IMG/VR virus record: IMGVR_UViG_3300031539_000074
Span: 1 to 45,739 of that record
Strand: one strand, 5' to 3'
From: a virus
DNA: 45,739 nucleotides
The notes under the pieces are model-generated. The model had not been told where the DNA came from, did no database searches, and was given only the letters and a program-made list of their open reading frames with translations. Position numbers and translations under genes: made by a program. Of the stretch, positions 1 to 39,216 are shown one piece after another; the stretch's first letter is position 1, and each line of letters starts with the position of its first letter.

Positions 1-462
1 GGCTCTCTTGAGATTTGCTCCCCTGAGGTCGGCCCCAATGAGTTTGGCTCCCCTGAGTATGGCTCCCCTGAGGTTGGCTCCACTGAGGCAGGCTCCACTG
101 AGGTCGGCCCCAATGAGGTTGGCTTCATTGAGGTTGGCTTCATTGAGGTTGGCTCCATAGAGGGTGGCTCTCTTGAGATTTGCTCCATTGAGATTTGCTC
201 CATAGAGGGTGGCTCTCTTGAGATTTGCTCCCCTGAGGTCGGCCCCAATGAGTTTGGCTCCCCTGAGTATGGCTCCCCTGAGGTTGGCTCCACTGAGGCA
301 GGCTCCACTGAGGTCGGCCCCAATGAGGTTGGCTTCACTGAGGTTGGCTCCACTGAGGCAGGCTCCACTGAGGTCGGCCCCAATGAGGTTGGCTTCACTG
401 AGGTCGGCTTCACTGAGGTCGGCTTCACTGAGGTCGGCTCCAATGAGTTTGGCCCCAATGAG
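1..462. repeat. 15-bp tandem codon repeats with a 127-bp perfect direct repeat
   Basis: The DNA is built from 15-bp units, each encoding one pentapeptide. On top of this, positions 1-127 are identical to 211-337, an offset of 210 bp or 14 units. The last 86 bp of the window are a third copy of the start of this block. The array is therefore prone to recombination in the phage and to collapse during assembly. Confidence 0.95.
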
Positions 463-543
463 GTCAATCTCTTCATTAGGATTATCTTTGCGATATTTGT
501 TAAACTCTCGGATGTTTTCTAATTGTTCATGTGTTGGTTTCAT
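1..543 (-). CDS. Pentapeptide-repeat protein, N-terminal part (continues at 45165-45739 across the map junction)
   Basis: The frame starts at ATG 543 and runs open off the left end. After about 27 non-repeat residues it reads as a long series of A(D/N)LSx/LxG pentapeptides, such as [10 protein letters not shown] and ACLSG, about 30 units here. Such repeats fold as a right-handed quadrilateral beta-helix. Joined to the right end through the 86-bp overlap, the protein would be about 343 residues with about 40 repeats and a C-terminal globular domain. The gene starts one base after the stop of the preceding gene (TGA-C-ATG). The DNA itself repeats: 1-127 is identical to 211-337, so the repeat number may be collapsed or variable. 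The role is unknown; some pentapeptide-repeat proteins mimic DNA and bind gyrase, but nothing here shows that. Confidence 0.9.
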
Positions 544-23382: not shown

Positions 23383-24867
23383 TTAAGTGTTTTGATTTGT
23401 ATTATTTTCCTGATTTATATTCTCTTGATTCACGTTCATATTCTCGAACGGATCTGCTGGTGCCTCCTCTTCTATACGTGCCATTTCGGCCTCTACGTCA
23501 TCAATAAACGGCATAAGGCTTAATATCGTTCTCATGCTTATCGTGCCTTTGAGCGCTGCCGCCACATCTGCGTATAACGAAAGTTCTATCGGCAGGTTAC
23601 GTGTAAACTGTATTGTTATATTCAGCCAATCAAGTTTCTGCCCTTTTATCGAAGTCAGTGTATTTAAAACTTCGAACATATGCCGTGTCGCTGCCGTAAA
23701 TTTCCGCTCTTTTGTGATACTCTTGTTTTCAAGTCCCATGAGTTTATATTTGCGGCTTTCCCCCGACTGTGCACCGCCTGAGAACTTTTCGTCATTCAGG
23801 TTCGGTATACGTGCAAACCGATAAATATTGTCTTCTAAACGGGCGAGATGATGCTCTAAGAAAGCGTCTTTAATATCCTTCGTTAAATATGCAGCCTCAC
23901 CTCCCTTTGGTAGGCTCATAACTCGTGAGTTTGCTATTTCCTCGGCCTGCTCTTTGTCAAGCGATGTTCCGGTAACTTTGAGATATGCATTCCTGAATGC
24001 CTCAAACTCATCTTGATTGAAAGAGATGCACTTATCATAAGCATCAATCAAAGCCTTTGTCTTTTCAAAGTCACCTTGCTTCTCATTGTTATTTATATAT
24101 TCAAGCAACGGAATTAGTTTGAAATTATGAGGAAGTGGATTGATAGTCTCGGTGTCATCAGTCATAAACGTGCCATCGGCTACCTCTATCCAAAACGTGA
24201 CATGAGTATTATCATACCATTCGACACGATACCGCTCGCTGGCCGTACCGTTCTGCACAACTGCCACTTTATAATATCGCATTGCAGCCTGATTATCTTT
24301 AGTGCTCATGTCTTTTATGAATATACATTCCCATGGCGGAATACTCATCACGCGCTCAGAAACACCAGATTCATCCTTGCCCTGATATAGCAACCGACAG
24401 GCACGGCCACATATAGATTGGAATTTACCCGTCTCTGAATCGAGGTCTTCAATGTTGTTTACCTTATTAAACTCCATTATGTATTCATCTTGCTTATCAT
24501 CGGCTGCTTTATTTTCGTTTTCATCGCCTCCTGAATCAGTTTCGTATACTATCGGATTGCCGTAAATGTACCCGGTGAACGTATCGACTATCTCACCCCT
24601 GAAATCATGAGGAAGCTTATTGCAGATACCGTCTTGTGATTTGTCTTCTCTGCCAAGTATCGGCACATCGCCTTTGTATTCTGCGTAAGCGGTAATCTCT
24701 GCCGTGCGCCGCTCCTCATTCGCTTTAATCAGGTCTTTAATGATGTCAGAGTTTATTTCACCATTCATTTCTTTAATTTTGAAAAGTGCAGCTGCAAGGG
24801 CATCAGTCATAATCGCTGGGATGGTTGTCTTCCCAACTATTGCGCCTGTTATCGTTCGTGGACTCAT
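23383..24867 (-). CDS. Portal protein, SPP1 gp6 family
   Basis: 494 residues, the family's usual length. Signatures include ADIxAY-type EITAYAEYKGDVPIL near residue 60, FTGYIYGNPIVYE near 98, the wing and stem region with PPWECIFIKD, and FEAFRNAYLKVTG. The C-terminal tail is Asn/Gln-rich. The portal forms the dodecameric DNA channel at one head vertex. It overlaps the large terminase stop by ATGA. Confidence 0.85.
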   Translation of the reverse strand: MSPRTITGAIVGKTTIPAIMTDALAAALFKIKEMNGEINSDIIKDLIKANEERRTAEITAYAEYKGDVPILGREDKSQDGICNKLPHDFRGEIVDTFTGYIYGNPIVYETDSGGDENENKAADDKQDEYIMEFNKVNNIEDLDSETGKFQSICGRACRLLYQGKDESGVSERVMSIPPWECIFIKDMSTKDNQAAMRYYKVAVVQNGTASERYRVEWYDNTHVTFWIEVADGTFMTDDTETINPLPHNFKLIPLLEYINNNEKQGDFEKTKALIDAYDKCISFNQDEFEAFRNAYLKVTGTSLDKEQAEEIANSRVMSLPKGGEAAYLTKDIKDAFLEHHLARLEDNIYRFARIPNLNDEKFSGGAQSGESRKYKLMGLENKSITKERKFTAATRHMFEVLNTLTSIKGQKLDWLNITIQFTRNLPIELSLYADVAAALKGTISMRTILSLMPFIDDVEAEMARIEEEAPADPFENMNVNQENINQENNTNQNT

Positions 24868-26240
24868 CCTGATACCCTTCGTATAGATGCCCCGGCTGTA
24901 ATCTTTTGAGGTTCGACAAGCATGTCATAGCCACCTGCCGCCGAATCCGGCTGGTCATCGTGAGTGGCTTCCGGGAAGTTCTCGCATTCCGTGATAAACG
25001 CATCATTCCACGGCGCTTTGAGAACCTTGACATTCCCAGCCTCGCATTGAGCAGACAGAGGCGAAAAACGAGTTACTTTATCCTTTTGCGATAACGATGC
25101 ACTGGCGTTAAACCCCGCCAGTGTCCTTATAAGCGATTGCACTTCTGATTTACCCGAGGCTCCAGGCTCTTGTTCCAGTCCGATTATAACGCCCTTGCCG
25201 TCCTGCGATGCTGTATTTTTGATTGCATCGACAACTTTCTTTGGTGATCCTTGAAAGCGAACAACATTCAAGATATACACATACCCTGCTTTATCCATAC
25301 CCATCTTTACGCCCACTGTCCAGTCAGGATCGTTATCGGCTGTCTTTTCTGTTGCCGCTCTATCCCAGTAGCGTACAGTTTTTTCACACACCGGAGCTGC
25401 ATCGACAACCTCTACCCATCGGCGCTGAAAGTATAAGCCTGCTGCCGGCCGTATTTTCCAGTTGTTTTTGAGTAATTGTTCACGTTCTACATGGCCGAGC
25501 GCATTAAGATTAGCAAGATATCCGGGGTCTTTTTTGAGCAATATTGGATTATCATATATATTTGCAGGGATGAATGTAAACGATTTCGGCAATGAATCAC
25601 TACCATACTTCTCTTTCAATTCGGCCTCGGTTGCCGCCCAGCGGAGCTCATCATTGATATGCAGAAAATAACGTACAACACCGCCACGTTCCTCAATTGG
25701 ATATCCTGTGTCGTGATCTATCCACCATTCTATCATTTCGGCGATAAACGAATCAGGATCGGGATTGCATGTCGCTCGAATATATGGCCTTACACCACAC
25801 AAAGAACGATTACGGGAAAGCATGTAAAAGAATATTTTTTTGCTAAAATGTGTTATTTCATCAAAAGCCATATAGGTAATTTGAGCGCCCTGGTATGCTA
25901 AGCGATCCTTGTCGTATTCCATGTGAGCGAATGTCATCTTTGCGCCGCTTGGGAATATCCATTCAAGCGTTGTTTGCTTAGGTCGTGCCCCGGCAAAAGG
26001 GTATATTTCTTCTGATTCATCCCACAGTCCGCCCTCGGTTCGAATCTGTGTGGACTGCTGCCTGAATATCACACCGCCGAAACCCGGATTATTGACGTGC
26101 CTCACAGGTTCAAGCAGTTCCCCAAATGTCTTTCCACCGCCAGCCGCACCGCCGTAAATGACAATATCGGCCGCCGAAGACAGAAACATCATCTGCTTAC
26201 CCGGTTGCGGTCTGATTATCCTCTGTGGTGTCTGTTCCAT
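24864..26240 (-). CDS. Terminase large subunit
   Basis: 458 residues from ATG 26240. A longer frame reaches 26336, and its extra 32 residues look like a signal peptide, but that segment lies inside the small terminase gene, and packaging ATPases are cytoplasmic. AGGAG lies two bases before ATG 26240, closer than usual. The Walker A motif is GGAAGGGKT at residues 30-38, Walker B is ITYMAFDE at 121-128, and the nuclease domain starts near VRYWDRAATE with acidic residues in DNDPDW and GLEQEPGASGKSE. It cuts and pumps DNA through the portal. Confidence 0.9.
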   Translation of the reverse strand: MEQTPQRIIRPQPGKQMMFLSSAADIVIYGGAAGGGKTFGELLEPVRHVNNPGFGGVIFRQQSTQIRTEGGLWDESEEIYPFAGARPKQTTLEWIFPSGAKMTFAHMEYDKDRLAYQGAQITYMAFDEITHFSKKIFFYMLSRNRSLCGVRPYIRATCNPDPDSFIAEMIEWWIDHDTGYPIEERGGVVRYFLHINDELRWAATEAELKEKYGSDSLPKSFTFIPANIYDNPILLKKDPGYLANLNALGHVEREQLLKNNWKIRPAAGLYFQRRWVEVVDAAPVCEKTVRYWDRAATEKTADNDPDWTVGVKMGMDKAGYVYILNVVRFQGSPKKVVDAIKNTASQDGKGVIIGLEQEPGASGKSEVQSLIRTLAGFNASASLSQKDKVTRFSPLSAQCEAGNVKVLKAPWNDAFITECENFPEATHDDQPDSAAGGYDMLVEPQKITAGASIRRVSG

Positions 26241-26661
26241 CGCTCCTGCCGTTGTCGGGAAGCTCAAAGATAGTAATATTAGACCCGACATTAATATTGA
26301 CAAGCGGGTCTTTTGCTTTAATCCCAAGTAATTCATGCCGCTCCTTTTGCACTGCCAAACATGCCTTGTAATCTTGTATTGATATTGATCGCTTGTAGAG
26401 GTCTTCCAGTCTCGTTAAACCGAGTCCTATTTCATAATCTTTTTTGTAGTCTGATATTTTTTCAATTTCCTTTCGTGCCCTTTGCATATATGCGTCAATA
26501 GTGCGCTCGCTGACATTCCATGTCCATCCCGGGTCTTCTTTTTCCGCCTGTTTTGATATATATTGAAGCATTTCTTTTCGGGTGAGGCCCATGATTATTA
26601 AGCTGACAATGGCCTCGACACGAATGATTAATTCTGCTTTTGATGTTTTTTCACCGGGCAT
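26197..26661 (-). CDS. Terminase small subunit
   Basis: 154 residues from ATG 26661, which has GGAAGAG seven bases upstream and overlaps the PLD-like gene's end by 11 bases. Residues about 8-70 are a helix-turn-helix-like domain (AELIIRVEAIVSLIIMG, WNVSERTIDAYMQRARKE), as in DNA-recognising small terminases. Residues about 75-120 are helical and suited to oligomer contacts. It lies directly before the large subunit, whose start it overlaps by 44 bases. Confidence 0.8.
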   Translation of the reverse strand: MPGEKTSKAELIIRVEAIVSLIIMGLTRKEMLQYISKQAEKEDPGWTWNVSERTIDAYMQRARKEIEKISDYKKDYEIGLGLTRLEDLYKRSISIQDYKACLAVQKERHELLGIKAKDPLVNINVGSNITIFELPDNGRSDGTDTTEDNQTATG

Positions 26662-36729: not shown

Positions 36730-36942
36730 TCAAGCATCGTTCATCCTCTTTTTCTGATGGTTCTTCCACTCTACCGGGCTGTTTACGTGCGTGAAATATT
36801 TGCAGGTATCCTGATCCTTCACAAAATGATCGATATATGCCTGCTTCTCCTCGAAACATTTCATGTCCTTAAATATACAGTGCGGACAATACTTTTCCCT
36901 TTCACGCAGGGCTGCAATTATTTGTTTAGGCCGGAATTGCAT
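36730..36942 (-). CDS. Cys-rich small protein
   Basis: 70 residues from the ATG overlapping the methyltransferase stop (TAATG); six upstream codons without a ribosome site are excluded. CPHCIFKDMKC and a further Cys near residue 47 suggest a zinc site. It follows the methyltransferase gene directly. No family is recognised. Confidence 0.55.
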   Translation of the reverse strand: MQFRPKQIIAALREREKYCPHCIFKDMKCFEEKQAYIDHFVKDQDTCKYFTHVNSPVEWKNHQKKRMNDA

Positions 36943-38075
36943 TATAAAAACCTTATCCATTCTTTGATTCTCGTGCCTATCGCCTGTACAACAGGTACAC
37001 TCACGGCGTTACCTATCATCTTGTATCTCTGTGTGTCGGATATTTCTTTTACCTCTCCATCGAACATACCGTATTTAGTCCATCCATGTTTTATAATAAA
37101 CTCAACACGCAATATAGGTGTATTCAGTATTTGCTTTGGAATGTATCCAATTATGGCATTTATTACAGACAAGAACAAGATTGTCAATTTCTGTTCTGGT
37201 TTCTCTGTGTTCAAATGGTTTAACATGGTGGACTTCAAATGTTTTTTGAGTGTGATTAAATCTTTCTCCGCAAACTGAGCAAGTTGCATTATCTCTTTTC
37301 CATACATCCTTACGAGCCTGTTTCCATTCTTTTGATGTGTCAAACAATGCTCTTTCTGATGTAATGCCGCCTTTCCAGAATGGATTATTCTCTCCGCTAT
37401 TTGCTTTATAGAAACAATCAGGAGAGCAATATTCTCTACTTGCATAAGCTGGTGATACACGTTTTTGTTTTCCACACAACTTACATGCAATAATAATTTT
37501 CCTTGACTGTGTATTTCTGCTAAGTTTTCCTCGCAGTATATACGCACATCCGGTTGAGCATGTTTGTTTGTTGGTAGATTGCTTATACTTAAACTCTGTC
37601 CCACAAATAACACATTTTCTTGTGCGCTGTCTTTTTCTGCATTCCCAACAGGTTTTTGCGACCTGTGATTTTTCTCTTCCGCACTCGCATTTATCTTTGC
37701 TTGGTCTAAGCATATTTCAAATAATATCCTTTCGTTAATTTCGGGAAATCCTTGTAAGCGTTCCCATTCAATAGGTGTTAATTGTCTTATTATCCCGTCT
37801 TCTTGTAATACCAATTCATTAAGCCAACCGTATGATGAGCGTAGACAGAGAATATTTTTTATTCCGCCTTTATTGAATCCATGCGGTCTTGTAATAACAT
37901 AAGTGCCATTCCTTTGTGACCCATATCCACGAGCCGTACAGCAGACCGAAAAAGCCTTTGTATCCAGCCGGTTTGTCGGGGGGATAGGAAATATTTTCGG
38001 TCTGGATTTTCCTCTAAAATATCGCTTAGTGTTTGTCGCCATCTTCCCACCTCTTGGATATATATTTTTGTCCAA
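36942..38075 (-). CDS. C5-cytosine DNA methyltransferase, C-terminal part, carrying HNH insert 2
   Basis: From about 37983 downward this frame is methyltransferase: TNRLDTKAFSVCCTARGYG, LTPIEWERLQGFPE (motif IX region), then, after an insertion, GWTKYGMFDGEVKEISDTQRYKMIGNAVSVPVV (motif X). The part upstream of 37983, including the first ATG, is a shadow of the other frame. It joins 37859-39109 by a -1 shift at a six-C tract (37978-37983). Between GFPE and GWT lies about 630 bp that holds an HNH gene in another frame (37102-37713), yet this frame stays open throughout. Confidence 0.75.
   Translation of the reverse strand: MDKNIYPRGGKMATNTKRYFRGKSRPKIFPIPPTNRLDTKAFSVCCTARGYGSQRNGTYVITRPHGFNKGGIKNILCLRSSYGWLNELVLQEDGIIRQLTPIEWERLQGFPEINERILFEICLDQAKINASAEEKNHRSQKPVGNAEKDSAQENVLFVGQSLSISNLPTNKHAQPDVRIYCEENLAEIHSQGKLLLHVSCVENKNVYHQLMQVENIALLIVSIKQIAERIIHSGKAALHQKEHCLTHQKNGNRLVRMYGKEIMQLAQFAEKDLITLKKHLKSTMLNHLNTEKPEQKLTILFLSVINAIIGYIPKQILNTPILRVEFIIKHGWTKYGMFDGEVKEISDTQRYKMIGNAVSVPVVQAIGTRIKEWIRFL
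37102..37713 (-). CDS. HNH homing endonuclease 2, nested out of frame in the methyltransferase gene
   Basis: 203 residues. Five Cys pairs in the first 130 residues (CECG, CWEC, CVICG, CKLCG) form zinc fingers. GENNPFWKGG is a NUMOD3-type DNA-binding motif, and the C-terminal CSVCGERF, VHHVKPFEH and LVCNKCHNWIH form the HNH nuclease core. It interrupts the conserved GFP-D-GWT coding site, typical of homing endonucleases that target conserved gene segments. Its only ribosome site is a weak GAAAGGAT. Confidence 0.8.
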   Translation of the reverse strand: MLRPSKDKCECGREKSQVAKTCWECRKRQRTRKCVICGTEFKYKQSTNKQTCSTGCAYILRGKLSRNTQSRKIIIACKLCGKQKRVSPAYASREYCSPDCFYKANSGENNPFWKGGITSERALFDTSKEWKQARKDVWKRDNATCSVCGERFNHTQKTFEVHHVKPFEHRETRTEIDNLVLVCNKCHNWIHSKANTEYTYIAC

Positions 38076-39109
38076 TTTCTACCATCTCCGAGGGAGTAAA
38101 AAAGTTTCCCTTTATAGAATTGCACCGATAACAACAAAGTGCCAAATTCCCCTTTTCGTATCCTTTCTGAGAATTCATTCTGTCTATCGTCAAACGTGCA
38201 GTCCTCCGGTTGTATGAATCTGAATCTATAGGAAGACGTGCTTCCTCTATCCCACAATAGCAACATTTCCGTGGTTGGGATTTGTACCACATTATAAAGT
38301 CTTCCTGAGTTATCGTTACCAGAAGCGCACGAGACGATTGTTTCAGCCTCAGATAAGCCCTCTTTTCCGAATTGTCGTATTTCCTCTGTCTCTCTTTCGA
38401 TTTCCGGGGATGCTTTTTGCTCCACGCTCTTTGATATTCGTTTGAACAATTCCTGCACCATCTTGTAAGATTGCCCTTGAACCTTTTGTCTTTCAAAAAA
38501 TGCTTTAAAGACTCTGGATAATTCTTCTGACACTTCGTACACTTTCTCATACTGTACCTCCCTATGAATGTATTTATCAGGTATTATAGGGAAAATACTT
38601 TTGAATGGCAAGTCTTTTCTGATTCCGATAATGTATATCCGCTCTCTATTTTGGGGGAGAAACCCGCCTGTATTAAGAACTTGCCATTGACAGTCATACC
38701 CAATGTCGGTGAACAGTCTAATTGCTTCGTAGAAGTCGTAACCTCCATTAACCGAAAACAATCCTGGCACGTTCTCAGCAATGAAATATTTGGGCTTTTG
38801 AGCCCCAATGATTCGTACTGCCTCAGTAAGCAGATTGCTTCGTGTACCGTCTCGATGTCCTTTGCGTTTTCCAGCAATTGAATTATCTTGACAAGGCCAT
38901 CCGAAAGTGATAATGTCTGTGTTGGGCAGTTCGGAAGTTTTAATTTTAGTTGCGTCACCGTAATTCCTCATGTCGAAGTAGTGATATTCATGTACTGCCG
39001 ATGCGTATTTATCTATCTCGGCGTGCCATATCGTTTTACATAATCCGGACAGTTCTAATCCCAGACCGAAACCCTCTATTCCCGAAAACAAATTGCCGCA
39101 TGTCATCAT
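37859..39109 (-). CDS. C5-cytosine DNA methyltransferase, N-terminal part, carrying HNH insert 1
   Basis: 416 residues as an open frame from ATG 39109, which overlaps the stop of a small membrane gene (TAATG). Motifs: NLFSGIEGFG (I, SAM binding, residues 6-15), GWPCQDNS (IV, catalytic Cys 73), AENVPGLF (VI), and QNRERIYIIG (VIII, 153-162). After IIPDKYIH (near 182) about 510 bp are inserted that encode HNH 1 in another frame. Host sequence resumes with TLSDILEENPDRKYFLSP and then runs into the wrong frame at a six-C tract. The enzyme would methylate phage or host DNA against restriction. Confidence 0.8.
   Translation of the reverse strand: MMTCGNLFSGIEGFGLGLELSGLCKTIWHAEIDKYASAVHEYHYFDMRNYGDATKIKTSELPNTDIITFGWPCQDNSIAGKRKGHRDGTRSNLLTEAVRIIGAQKPKYFIAENVPGLFSVNGGYDFYEAIRLFTDIGYDCQWQVLNTGGFLPQNRERIYIIGIRKDLPFKSIFPIIPDKYIHREVQYEKVYEVSEELSRVFKAFFERQKVQGQSYKMVQELFKRISKSVEQKASPEIERETEEIRQFGKEGLSEAETIVSCASGNDNSGRLYNVVQIPTTEMLLLWDRGSTSSYRFRFIQPEDCTFDDRQNEFSERIRKGEFGTLLLSVQFYKGKLFYSLGDGRNWTKIYIQEVGRWRQTLSDILEENPDRKYFLSPRQTGWIQRLFRSAVRLVDMGHKGMALMLLQDRMDSIKAE
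38026..38550 (-). CDS. HNH homing endonuclease 1, nested out of frame in the methyltransferase gene
   Basis: 174 residues, with AGGGAGG five bases before the ATG, so it is translated on its own. The N-terminus has a Cys4 finger (CTKCQKNYP, CRNC). The nuclease core is CCYCGIEE, then LTIDRMNSQKGYEKGNLALCC and CNSIKGN. The gene lies wholly inside the methyltransferase reading frame, in a different frame, and its stop overlaps resumed host sequence. The host frame contains no stop across the insert. Confidence 0.85.
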   Translation of the reverse strand: MRKCTKCQKNYPESLKHFLKDKRFKGNLTRWCRNCSNEYQRAWSKKHPRKSKERQRKYDNSEKRAYLRLKQSSRALLVTITQEDFIMWYKSQPRKCCYCGIEEARLPIDSDSYNRRTARLTIDRMNSQKGYEKGNLALCCYRCNSIKGNFFTPSEMVEIGQKYISKRWEDGDKH

Positions 39110-39216
39110 TAGAATAACCTTATCACAGCGGAAATCACCAGTGCATCGAATATCAGGCAGACAATAAGAGTTAATATCAGGCATCGAAGCCCGGTTATGT
39201 CAAATTCATCTTTCAT
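39109..39216 (-). CDS. 35-residue membrane peptide coupled to the methyltransferase
   Basis: A short gene, MKDEFDITGLRC followed by a single hydrophobic span (LILTLIVCLIFDALVISAVI). Its stop overlaps the methyltransferase ATG (TAATG). The ribosome site is modest (AAAGAGAAA). It may mainly serve to couple translation. No homologue is recognised. Confidence 0.45.
   Translation of the reverse strand: MKDEFDITGLRCLILTLIVCLIFDALVISAVIRLF

Follow-up and report, generated by a model that had tools for sequence, protein, structure and literature searches.

Organization of the methyltransferase locus

The window analyzed here is a 45.7-kb IMG/VR virus record (IMGVR_UViG_3300031539_000074; 45,739 nt), in which the gene for a C5 cytosine methyltransferase carries two HNH endonuclease genes, HNH1 and HNH2, nested out of frame within its coding sequence. 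The features of the gene are as follows:

37859..39184, minus strand: N-terminal part of the methyltransferase (frame A), open across HNH1; PF00145 E 3.4e-49, TIGR00675 E 3e-52
38026..38550, minus strand: HNH1, an out-of-frame HNH/endonuclease VII-like gene of 174 amino acids; phrog_1035 (endonuclease VII) E 3e-24
37978..37983, minus strand: run of six C near the change from frame A to frame B
36942..38000, minus strand: C-terminal part of the methyltransferase (frame B), open across HNH2; TIGR00675 residues 343-370, E 7.2e-10
37086..37739, minus strand: insert 2, 654 nt (218 codons), between ..ERLQGFPE and GWTKYG.., a site that is empty in relatives
37102..37713, minus strand: HNH2, an out-of-frame zinc-finger HNH endonuclease gene of 203 amino acids; Pfam HNH PF01844 E 1.1e-10
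36942..37085, minus strand: C-terminus of the methyltransferase after insert 2 (GWTKYG .. SDTQRYKMIGNAV ..)

The hallmarks of a C5 cytosine methyltransferase are all present in the host, namely PCQ, ENV, QxRxR, and motif X in the usual nomenclature of these enzymes, and the protein probably starts at about 39109. The ORF of frame B, in which the downstream methyltransferase motif lies, extends without a stop from 38075 to 36942 on the minus strand. Between HNH1 and HNH2 (about 38000 to 37945), the methyltransferase reading shifts by one base from frame A to frame B, so that the recorded gene is not one ORF and a single intact reading frame is lacking in the window (shift near 37980). This change near the six-C run could be due to mutation, assembly error, or recoding; an exact-pattern scan found no second copy of the six-C stretch, and the phage collection held no DNA resembling the region. 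Because of the frame change, the full methyltransferase may not be made from the window gene. Elsewhere in the record, a terminase large subunit-like ORF (24864..26336, minus strand) has its best phage matches in Rhizobium phages (54%) and Methanoculleus viruses (52%).

Only 42 nt of the 654-nt insert 2 fall outside the HNH2 ORF, whose zinc-finger cysteines are invariant across the HNH2 family; a Foldseek search with HNH2 returned nothing at E ≤ 0.001, the top phage HNH match being 5h0m (E 5.3e-3). HNH1 lies upstream in the same gene. An earlier note had placed an HNH gene between GFPE and GWTKYG, at the conserved GFP-D-GWT coding site, and had described the host frame as open for about 210 codons; the gene is indeed there (insert from 37739 to 37086), and the host frame crosses the insert for 218 codons with 0 stops. 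The note had also held that both inserts are nested in the same way in the same methyltransferase. The host frame is, however, +1 relative to HNH2 and +2 relative to HNH1 (0 stops in either case), and the one-base change described above does not support a single unbroken host frame for the two.

Stop avoidance in the host frame

Synonymous resampling of HNH1 gave a mean of 17.3 host-frame stops and never fewer than 5 in 20,000 draws, against the 0 observed, and resampling with the gene's own codons gave a mean of 13.8 and a minimum of 4. Among HNH1 codons able to end in T, those ending in T number 0/41 before AA, AG, or GA and 46/83 elsewhere (P 2.4e-11). A stop-free host frame over HNH1 by chance is essentially impossible. 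A pattern scan of viral contigs found no HNH1 relatives, and of 34 phage records that are ∼25–30% identical to HNH1, the five fetched are each annotated as a gene of its own, with 7–18 stops in the +1 frame and 13–63 in the +2 frame; the HNH1 case thus rests on a single sequence.

For HNH2 of the window, resampling with phage codon usage gave a mean of 5.4 host-frame stops and none in a fraction of 0.0006 (5,000 draws) or 0.00105 (20,000 draws), and with its own codons a mean of 2.8 stops and a probability of none of 0.012 by permutation and 0.037 by resampling. The codon-context test on this gene alone compares 0/13 with 4/12 (P 0.04), so that, taken by itself, the open frame over HNH2 is modestly unlikely by chance.

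Relative scans identified 9 and then 30 viral loci, together with one Bacteroidetes MAG locus, that encode HNH2 relatives. All 18 full-length loci (L028–L045) have the gene at the same site in a C5 methyltransferase, with 0 stops in the host frame and 16–33 stops in the remaining frame. Removal of the duplicates or near-duplicates L034, L037, and L043 left 15 distinct members, 45–68% identical to HNH2 of the window, which together with the window form the set of 16 used below. Each of the 16 has 0 host-frame stops, where 1.8–11.1 are expected from local codon usage (rough values for L028, L038, L039, L040, and L042, which have scant flanking coding DNA of 630–2,000 bases) and 1.3–4.4 from their own codons, although some members are stop-free in up to 19% of own-codon draws. 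In the pooled family, A-ending leucine, isoleucine, and valine codons number 0/181 before A or G and 74/225 before C or T (P 1.7e-22), and the same test on eight members no more than 62% identical gave 0/88 versus 35/119 (P 3.6e-10). The free-standing controls, 12 of 13 partial relatives (L046–L058, with L048 a duplicate of L049), showed no significant difference (86/272 versus 54/196). Ordinary genes of the window have a mild bias of the same kind (405/1,280 versus 253/611, P 3.6e-5), which is far too weak to account for the HNH2 result.

Since the 15 further distinct relatives are all stop-free, chance is excluded, and the codon statistics show that the HNH2 insert has been kept free of host-frame stops, which we read as the work of selection. 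In distant pairs (∼40% identity), third positions agree at 0.57 compared with 0.53 expected from composition, and this near saturation argues that the open frame is maintained, not just inherited, while the host-frame residues drift. The earlier note had suggested selection for a readable host frame and had named synonymous shuffling and a comparison of homologous inserts as checks on it; both bear it out, with stop-free frames uncommon after shuffling (probabilities of 0.0006 to 0.037 for HNH2, and 0 stops against a mean of 17.3 for HNH1) and with none of the 18 full-length homologous inserts interrupting the host frame.

A third HNH family and the ShiLan domain

A further nested gene was found in the host-relative survey, on a jumbo-sized viral contig of 223,879 bases (L082:3262-3801), where an HNH_3 gene (PF13392) is nested in a C5 methyltransferase just after TVPDDYTK of the host. 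Its host frame contains 0 stops compared with 6.3 expected from the codon usage of the locus (0 of 10,000 draws stop-free), while its own codons lead to an expectation of 2.0 stops and a probability of none of 0.077. Three HNH_3 relatives (L190, L191, and L192; 36–55% identical) are nested likewise with the host frame open, so that the frame is open in 4/4 of this family (L082/L189 and L190–L192), and the pooled context test gives 0/80 versus 17/37. As with HNH2, these genes are out of frame in C5 methyltransferases with the host frame at +1 and open; their site differs, being just after PDxxT and a few codons downstream of the HNH2 site, as does the HNH type. The family resembles the HNH of the ShiLan domain (36% identity over 107 aligned positions).

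The ShiLan domain, an HNH gene inserted out of frame in a DNA methylase of mycobacteriophages (Arsenault, Gosselin and Gogarten 2025, PMC11855218), is the nearest published case, and its description was the one paper on such an arrangement found within the open-licence PMC literature; a forerunner paper describes the transfer of the domain between divergent methylases (PMC9957025). According to the available text, the two systems share a zinc-finger HNH gene that lies out of frame within the DNA methyltransferase gene of a phage, a stop-free host frame at +1 relative to the HNH, a position between conserved codons, the lack of a detected intron or intein, and a host-frame product that is disordered (PMC11855218); in HNH2, as in ShiLan, the host resumes in frame after the insert. 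Measured in the same way as the genes above, the ShiLan HNH has 0 host-frame stops over 195 codons, with 2.7 expected and a probability of none of 0.031. The host of ShiLan is, however, an amino-methyltransferase (PF01555 in ShiLan gp65) and that of HNH2 a C5 enzyme (PF00145), the HNH types differ (HNH_3, PF13392, versus PF01844), and so do the insertion sites. HNH2 and the ShiLan HNH give a remote profile match (probability 93) that includes the shared zinc-finger stretch. With another host family, another HNH type, and only this remote match, HNH2 has the ShiLan arrangement but is a separate element, homology and a common enzyme and site not having been found. The available text of PMC11855218 and PMC9957025 does not compare the lack of stops statistically with what codon use would give, and within the open-licence PMC literature, no report of the present C5-methyltransferase families or of the TATAAT placement described below was found. 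What is new here is the selection test, the further families in C5 methyltransferases, and the candidate expression signals.

Empty sites and probable mobility

The survey covered 140 methyltransferase loci gathered by similarity to three invaded hosts. A motif search read 91 of them: the site is empty in 89 and occupied in 2 (L082, and L065, which is the L030 contig again). The remaining 49 were inspected by eye; in most, the motif is a variant one and the site is again empty. The sequences of L012, L104, L140, L151, L175, and L184 stop at the end of the contig or short of the site, and L013–L016 lack the motif. No HNH insert with a broken host frame was seen among the 140 loci, a set chosen for similarity to the three invaded hosts. 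In one of them (L068, at ∼2836), the methyltransferase ORF has in-frame stops just after ENVKGLV and again further down; motif X is intact downstream of these, and an HNH ORF was not seen. Two tRNA genes lie directly downstream of the invaded methyltransferase in L031 (3744-3889).

In many pairs, the hosts are more diverged than the inserts (L028/L044: HNH 58%, host 21%; L029/L044: 50% and 23%); the window was omitted from this upstream-host comparison, and L038, whose host is truncated by the contig end, was omitted from it and from both trees. In the host tree, the window and L032 group with empty-site hosts on a branch with full SH-aLRT support, and the tree, which comes from a quick search and contains a very long L044 branch, requires only 2 state changes; it hints weakly at movement. 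No two nearly identical methyltransferases turned up of which one carries the insert and the other does not. We regard homing of the HNH2 insert as likely.

Probable use of the host frame and candidate expression signals

The C-terminus of the methyltransferase is conserved in all 16 HNH2 members, and in 11 of these the stretch from the HNH stop to the SDTQRY motif contains no host-frame ATG, GTG, TTG, or CTG. Such a codon occurs there only in the window (ATG, 13 codons into the C-terminal methyltransferase piece), L028 (TTG), L032 (ATG), L038 (CTG), and L045 (GTG). In the 11 members without a start codon, the conserved C-terminus is therefore attainable only by read-through. An AlphaFold2 model of the L002 host including the insert, built from an alignment of 22 sequences, has a mean pLDDT of 56, with the catalytic core mostly at 75–95 on both sides and with insert residues 279-471 and a variable stretch (199-250) below 50; it aligns with M.HhaI over 1..532 (Z 26.5, rmsd 3.0, 236 residues). 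The predicted disorder of the insert is compatible with a tolerated loop, although it is not proof of one. Beyond what HNH coding accounts for, no clear conservation is seen among the residues that the insert encodes in the host frame, and the only domain matches of the host-frame peptide, DUF5948 and DUF3836, are below the curated cut-off. Because third positions are near saturation in distant pairs and no match reaches the cut-off, the host-frame peptide is not favoured as a functional overprinted domain.

The candidate signals for the HNH genes in the window are as follows:

37721..37726, minus strand: TATTAT, 7 nt before the HNH2 ATG, a possible degenerate TATAAT
38556..38561, minus strand: Shine-Dalgarno-like GGAGGT, 5 nt before the HNH1 ATG
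38583..38611, minus strand: promoter-like TTGCCA-17-TATAAT (11/12), 32 nt upstream of the HNH1 ATG, a consensus match only

A TATAAT-like hexamer (at least 5/6) lies exactly 6 nt before the ATG in 9/16 HNH2 members (L029, L030, L031, L032, L033, L036, L038, L039, and L044) compared with 7/458 other ATG ORF starts (P 4e-11), the members being related and the other starts being those of ORFs in the fetched loci, crudely taken as the first M. In terms of promoter geometry, this position fits a −10 element if the transcript begins at the AUG. The scan gave no Shine-Dalgarno match for any of the nine (0/9), while L040, L041, L042, and L045 have such a match but lack TATAAT; in L028 there is a 4-of-6 hexamer without a Shine-Dalgarno match, and L035 has neither signal. 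HNH2 of the window also has AGGA at 13 nt, and its TATTAT (gap 7) might conceivably act as a −10 element. Promoter-like sites as a class are not enriched over shuffles (3 found versus 6.2 expected at a 9-of-12 threshold). The start signals are consistent with HNH expression in some members possibly from a leaderless transcript driven by an embedded −10 element; leaderless initiation, from a GTG, has been proposed for the ShiLan HNH in the available text of PMC11855218.

Discussion

The open host frame might be attributed to luck arising from the amino acid make-up and codon use of zinc-finger HNH proteins, in which few L, I, V, and M codons would make +1 stops rare. Own-codon draws that are stop-free in 1.2–3.7% of cases for HNH2 of the window, and in up to 19% for some members, lend this some substance, but the frame is open in 16/16 members, in two relative frames, and in three HNH families, and the codon-context tests refute a chance origin, leaving luck hardly any probability. 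Removal of the insert by a self-splicing intron, an intein, or translational bypass would come to mind because group I introns are frequent carriers of HNH genes and some HNH proteins are intein domains. Group I intron genes of the I-HmuI type share the HNH nuclease and the homing logic with HNH2; their intron RNA is absent from the HNH2 insert according to Rfam. The 42 nt outside the HNH2 ORF leave no room for an intron core, and Rfam gave neither an intron family match nor a conserved group I intron RNA core, on which grounds a group I or group II intron is rejected; an intein is rejected because no intein model of Pfam or NCBIfam matched the host-frame ORF (36942..38075). None of these routes would need stop avoidance, and we regard them as very improbable.

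The insert could alternatively split the methyltransferase into two polypeptides that assemble, as the intron-less HNH homing gene mobE does in nrdA of Aeromonas phage Aeh1, where the function of the invaded enzyme survives as two polypeptides (PMC2988022, available text). The ATG 13 codons into the C-terminal piece of the window would suit such an arrangement; HNH2, unlike mobE, keeps the host frame open, which would be needless in a split gene, and genes in pieces are rejected by the 11/16 members without a start codon for the C-terminal piece, so that there is very little to recommend this explanation. A further possibility is that the open frame only spares ribosomes an early stop on the methyltransferase message, with its consequences of polarity, decay, or starved HNH translation, and does not serve a working long enzyme. 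The predicted disorder of the insert and the lack of clear conservation in its host-frame residues beyond HNH coding agree with this. The C-terminus, however, is conserved in 16/16 members and lacks a start in 11/16, which argues for selection on this part and for its translation by way of the insert, and sparing an early stop is accordingly an unlikely explanation on its own.

With fair confidence, we favour a mobile HNH gene without intron or intein that lies in the GFPD|GWT codons, with a host frame selected to remain readable, a host that is read through, an HNH that is started internally, and homing. Ribosomes would read the methyltransferase straight through the insert, and the product would be the enzyme enlarged by ∼218 unstructured residues, placed in a loop that precedes the last helix of the catalytic domain. 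The HNH protein would be made separately from an internal start in the other frame, by way of a Shine-Dalgarno site in some members and possibly of a leaderless transcript from the embedded −10 element in others. It would nick or cut uninvaded methyltransferase genes at the site, and repair would then copy the insert in; the element would be cheap to carry because the host enzyme would keep working. Two more HNH families, HNH1 and the HNH_3 family, would have arrived at the same solution.

It seems somewhat more probable than otherwise that such "frame-transparent" homing genes form a distinct and recurrent mobile class, in which unrelated HNH families have independently come to encode both a nuclease and a stop-free linker, and part of which would be self-sufficient through its own −10 element for a leaderless AUG mRNA. 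What was a mycobacteriophage curiosity becomes a testable rule with a clear statistic, with new C5 methyltransferase families in other phages and with hints at how the hidden HNH gene is expressed. For annotators, long stop-free inserts in methyltransferases may conceal a nuclease in another frame. Mobile genes in coding sequence have been thought to need splicing, by introns or inteins, or a split host; synonymous codon choice that keeps the host frame readable would be a third way. If this is true, an element that does not splice can persist within a functional enzyme, and the arrangement points to a route by which selfish genes could invade a functional gene and leave it intact.
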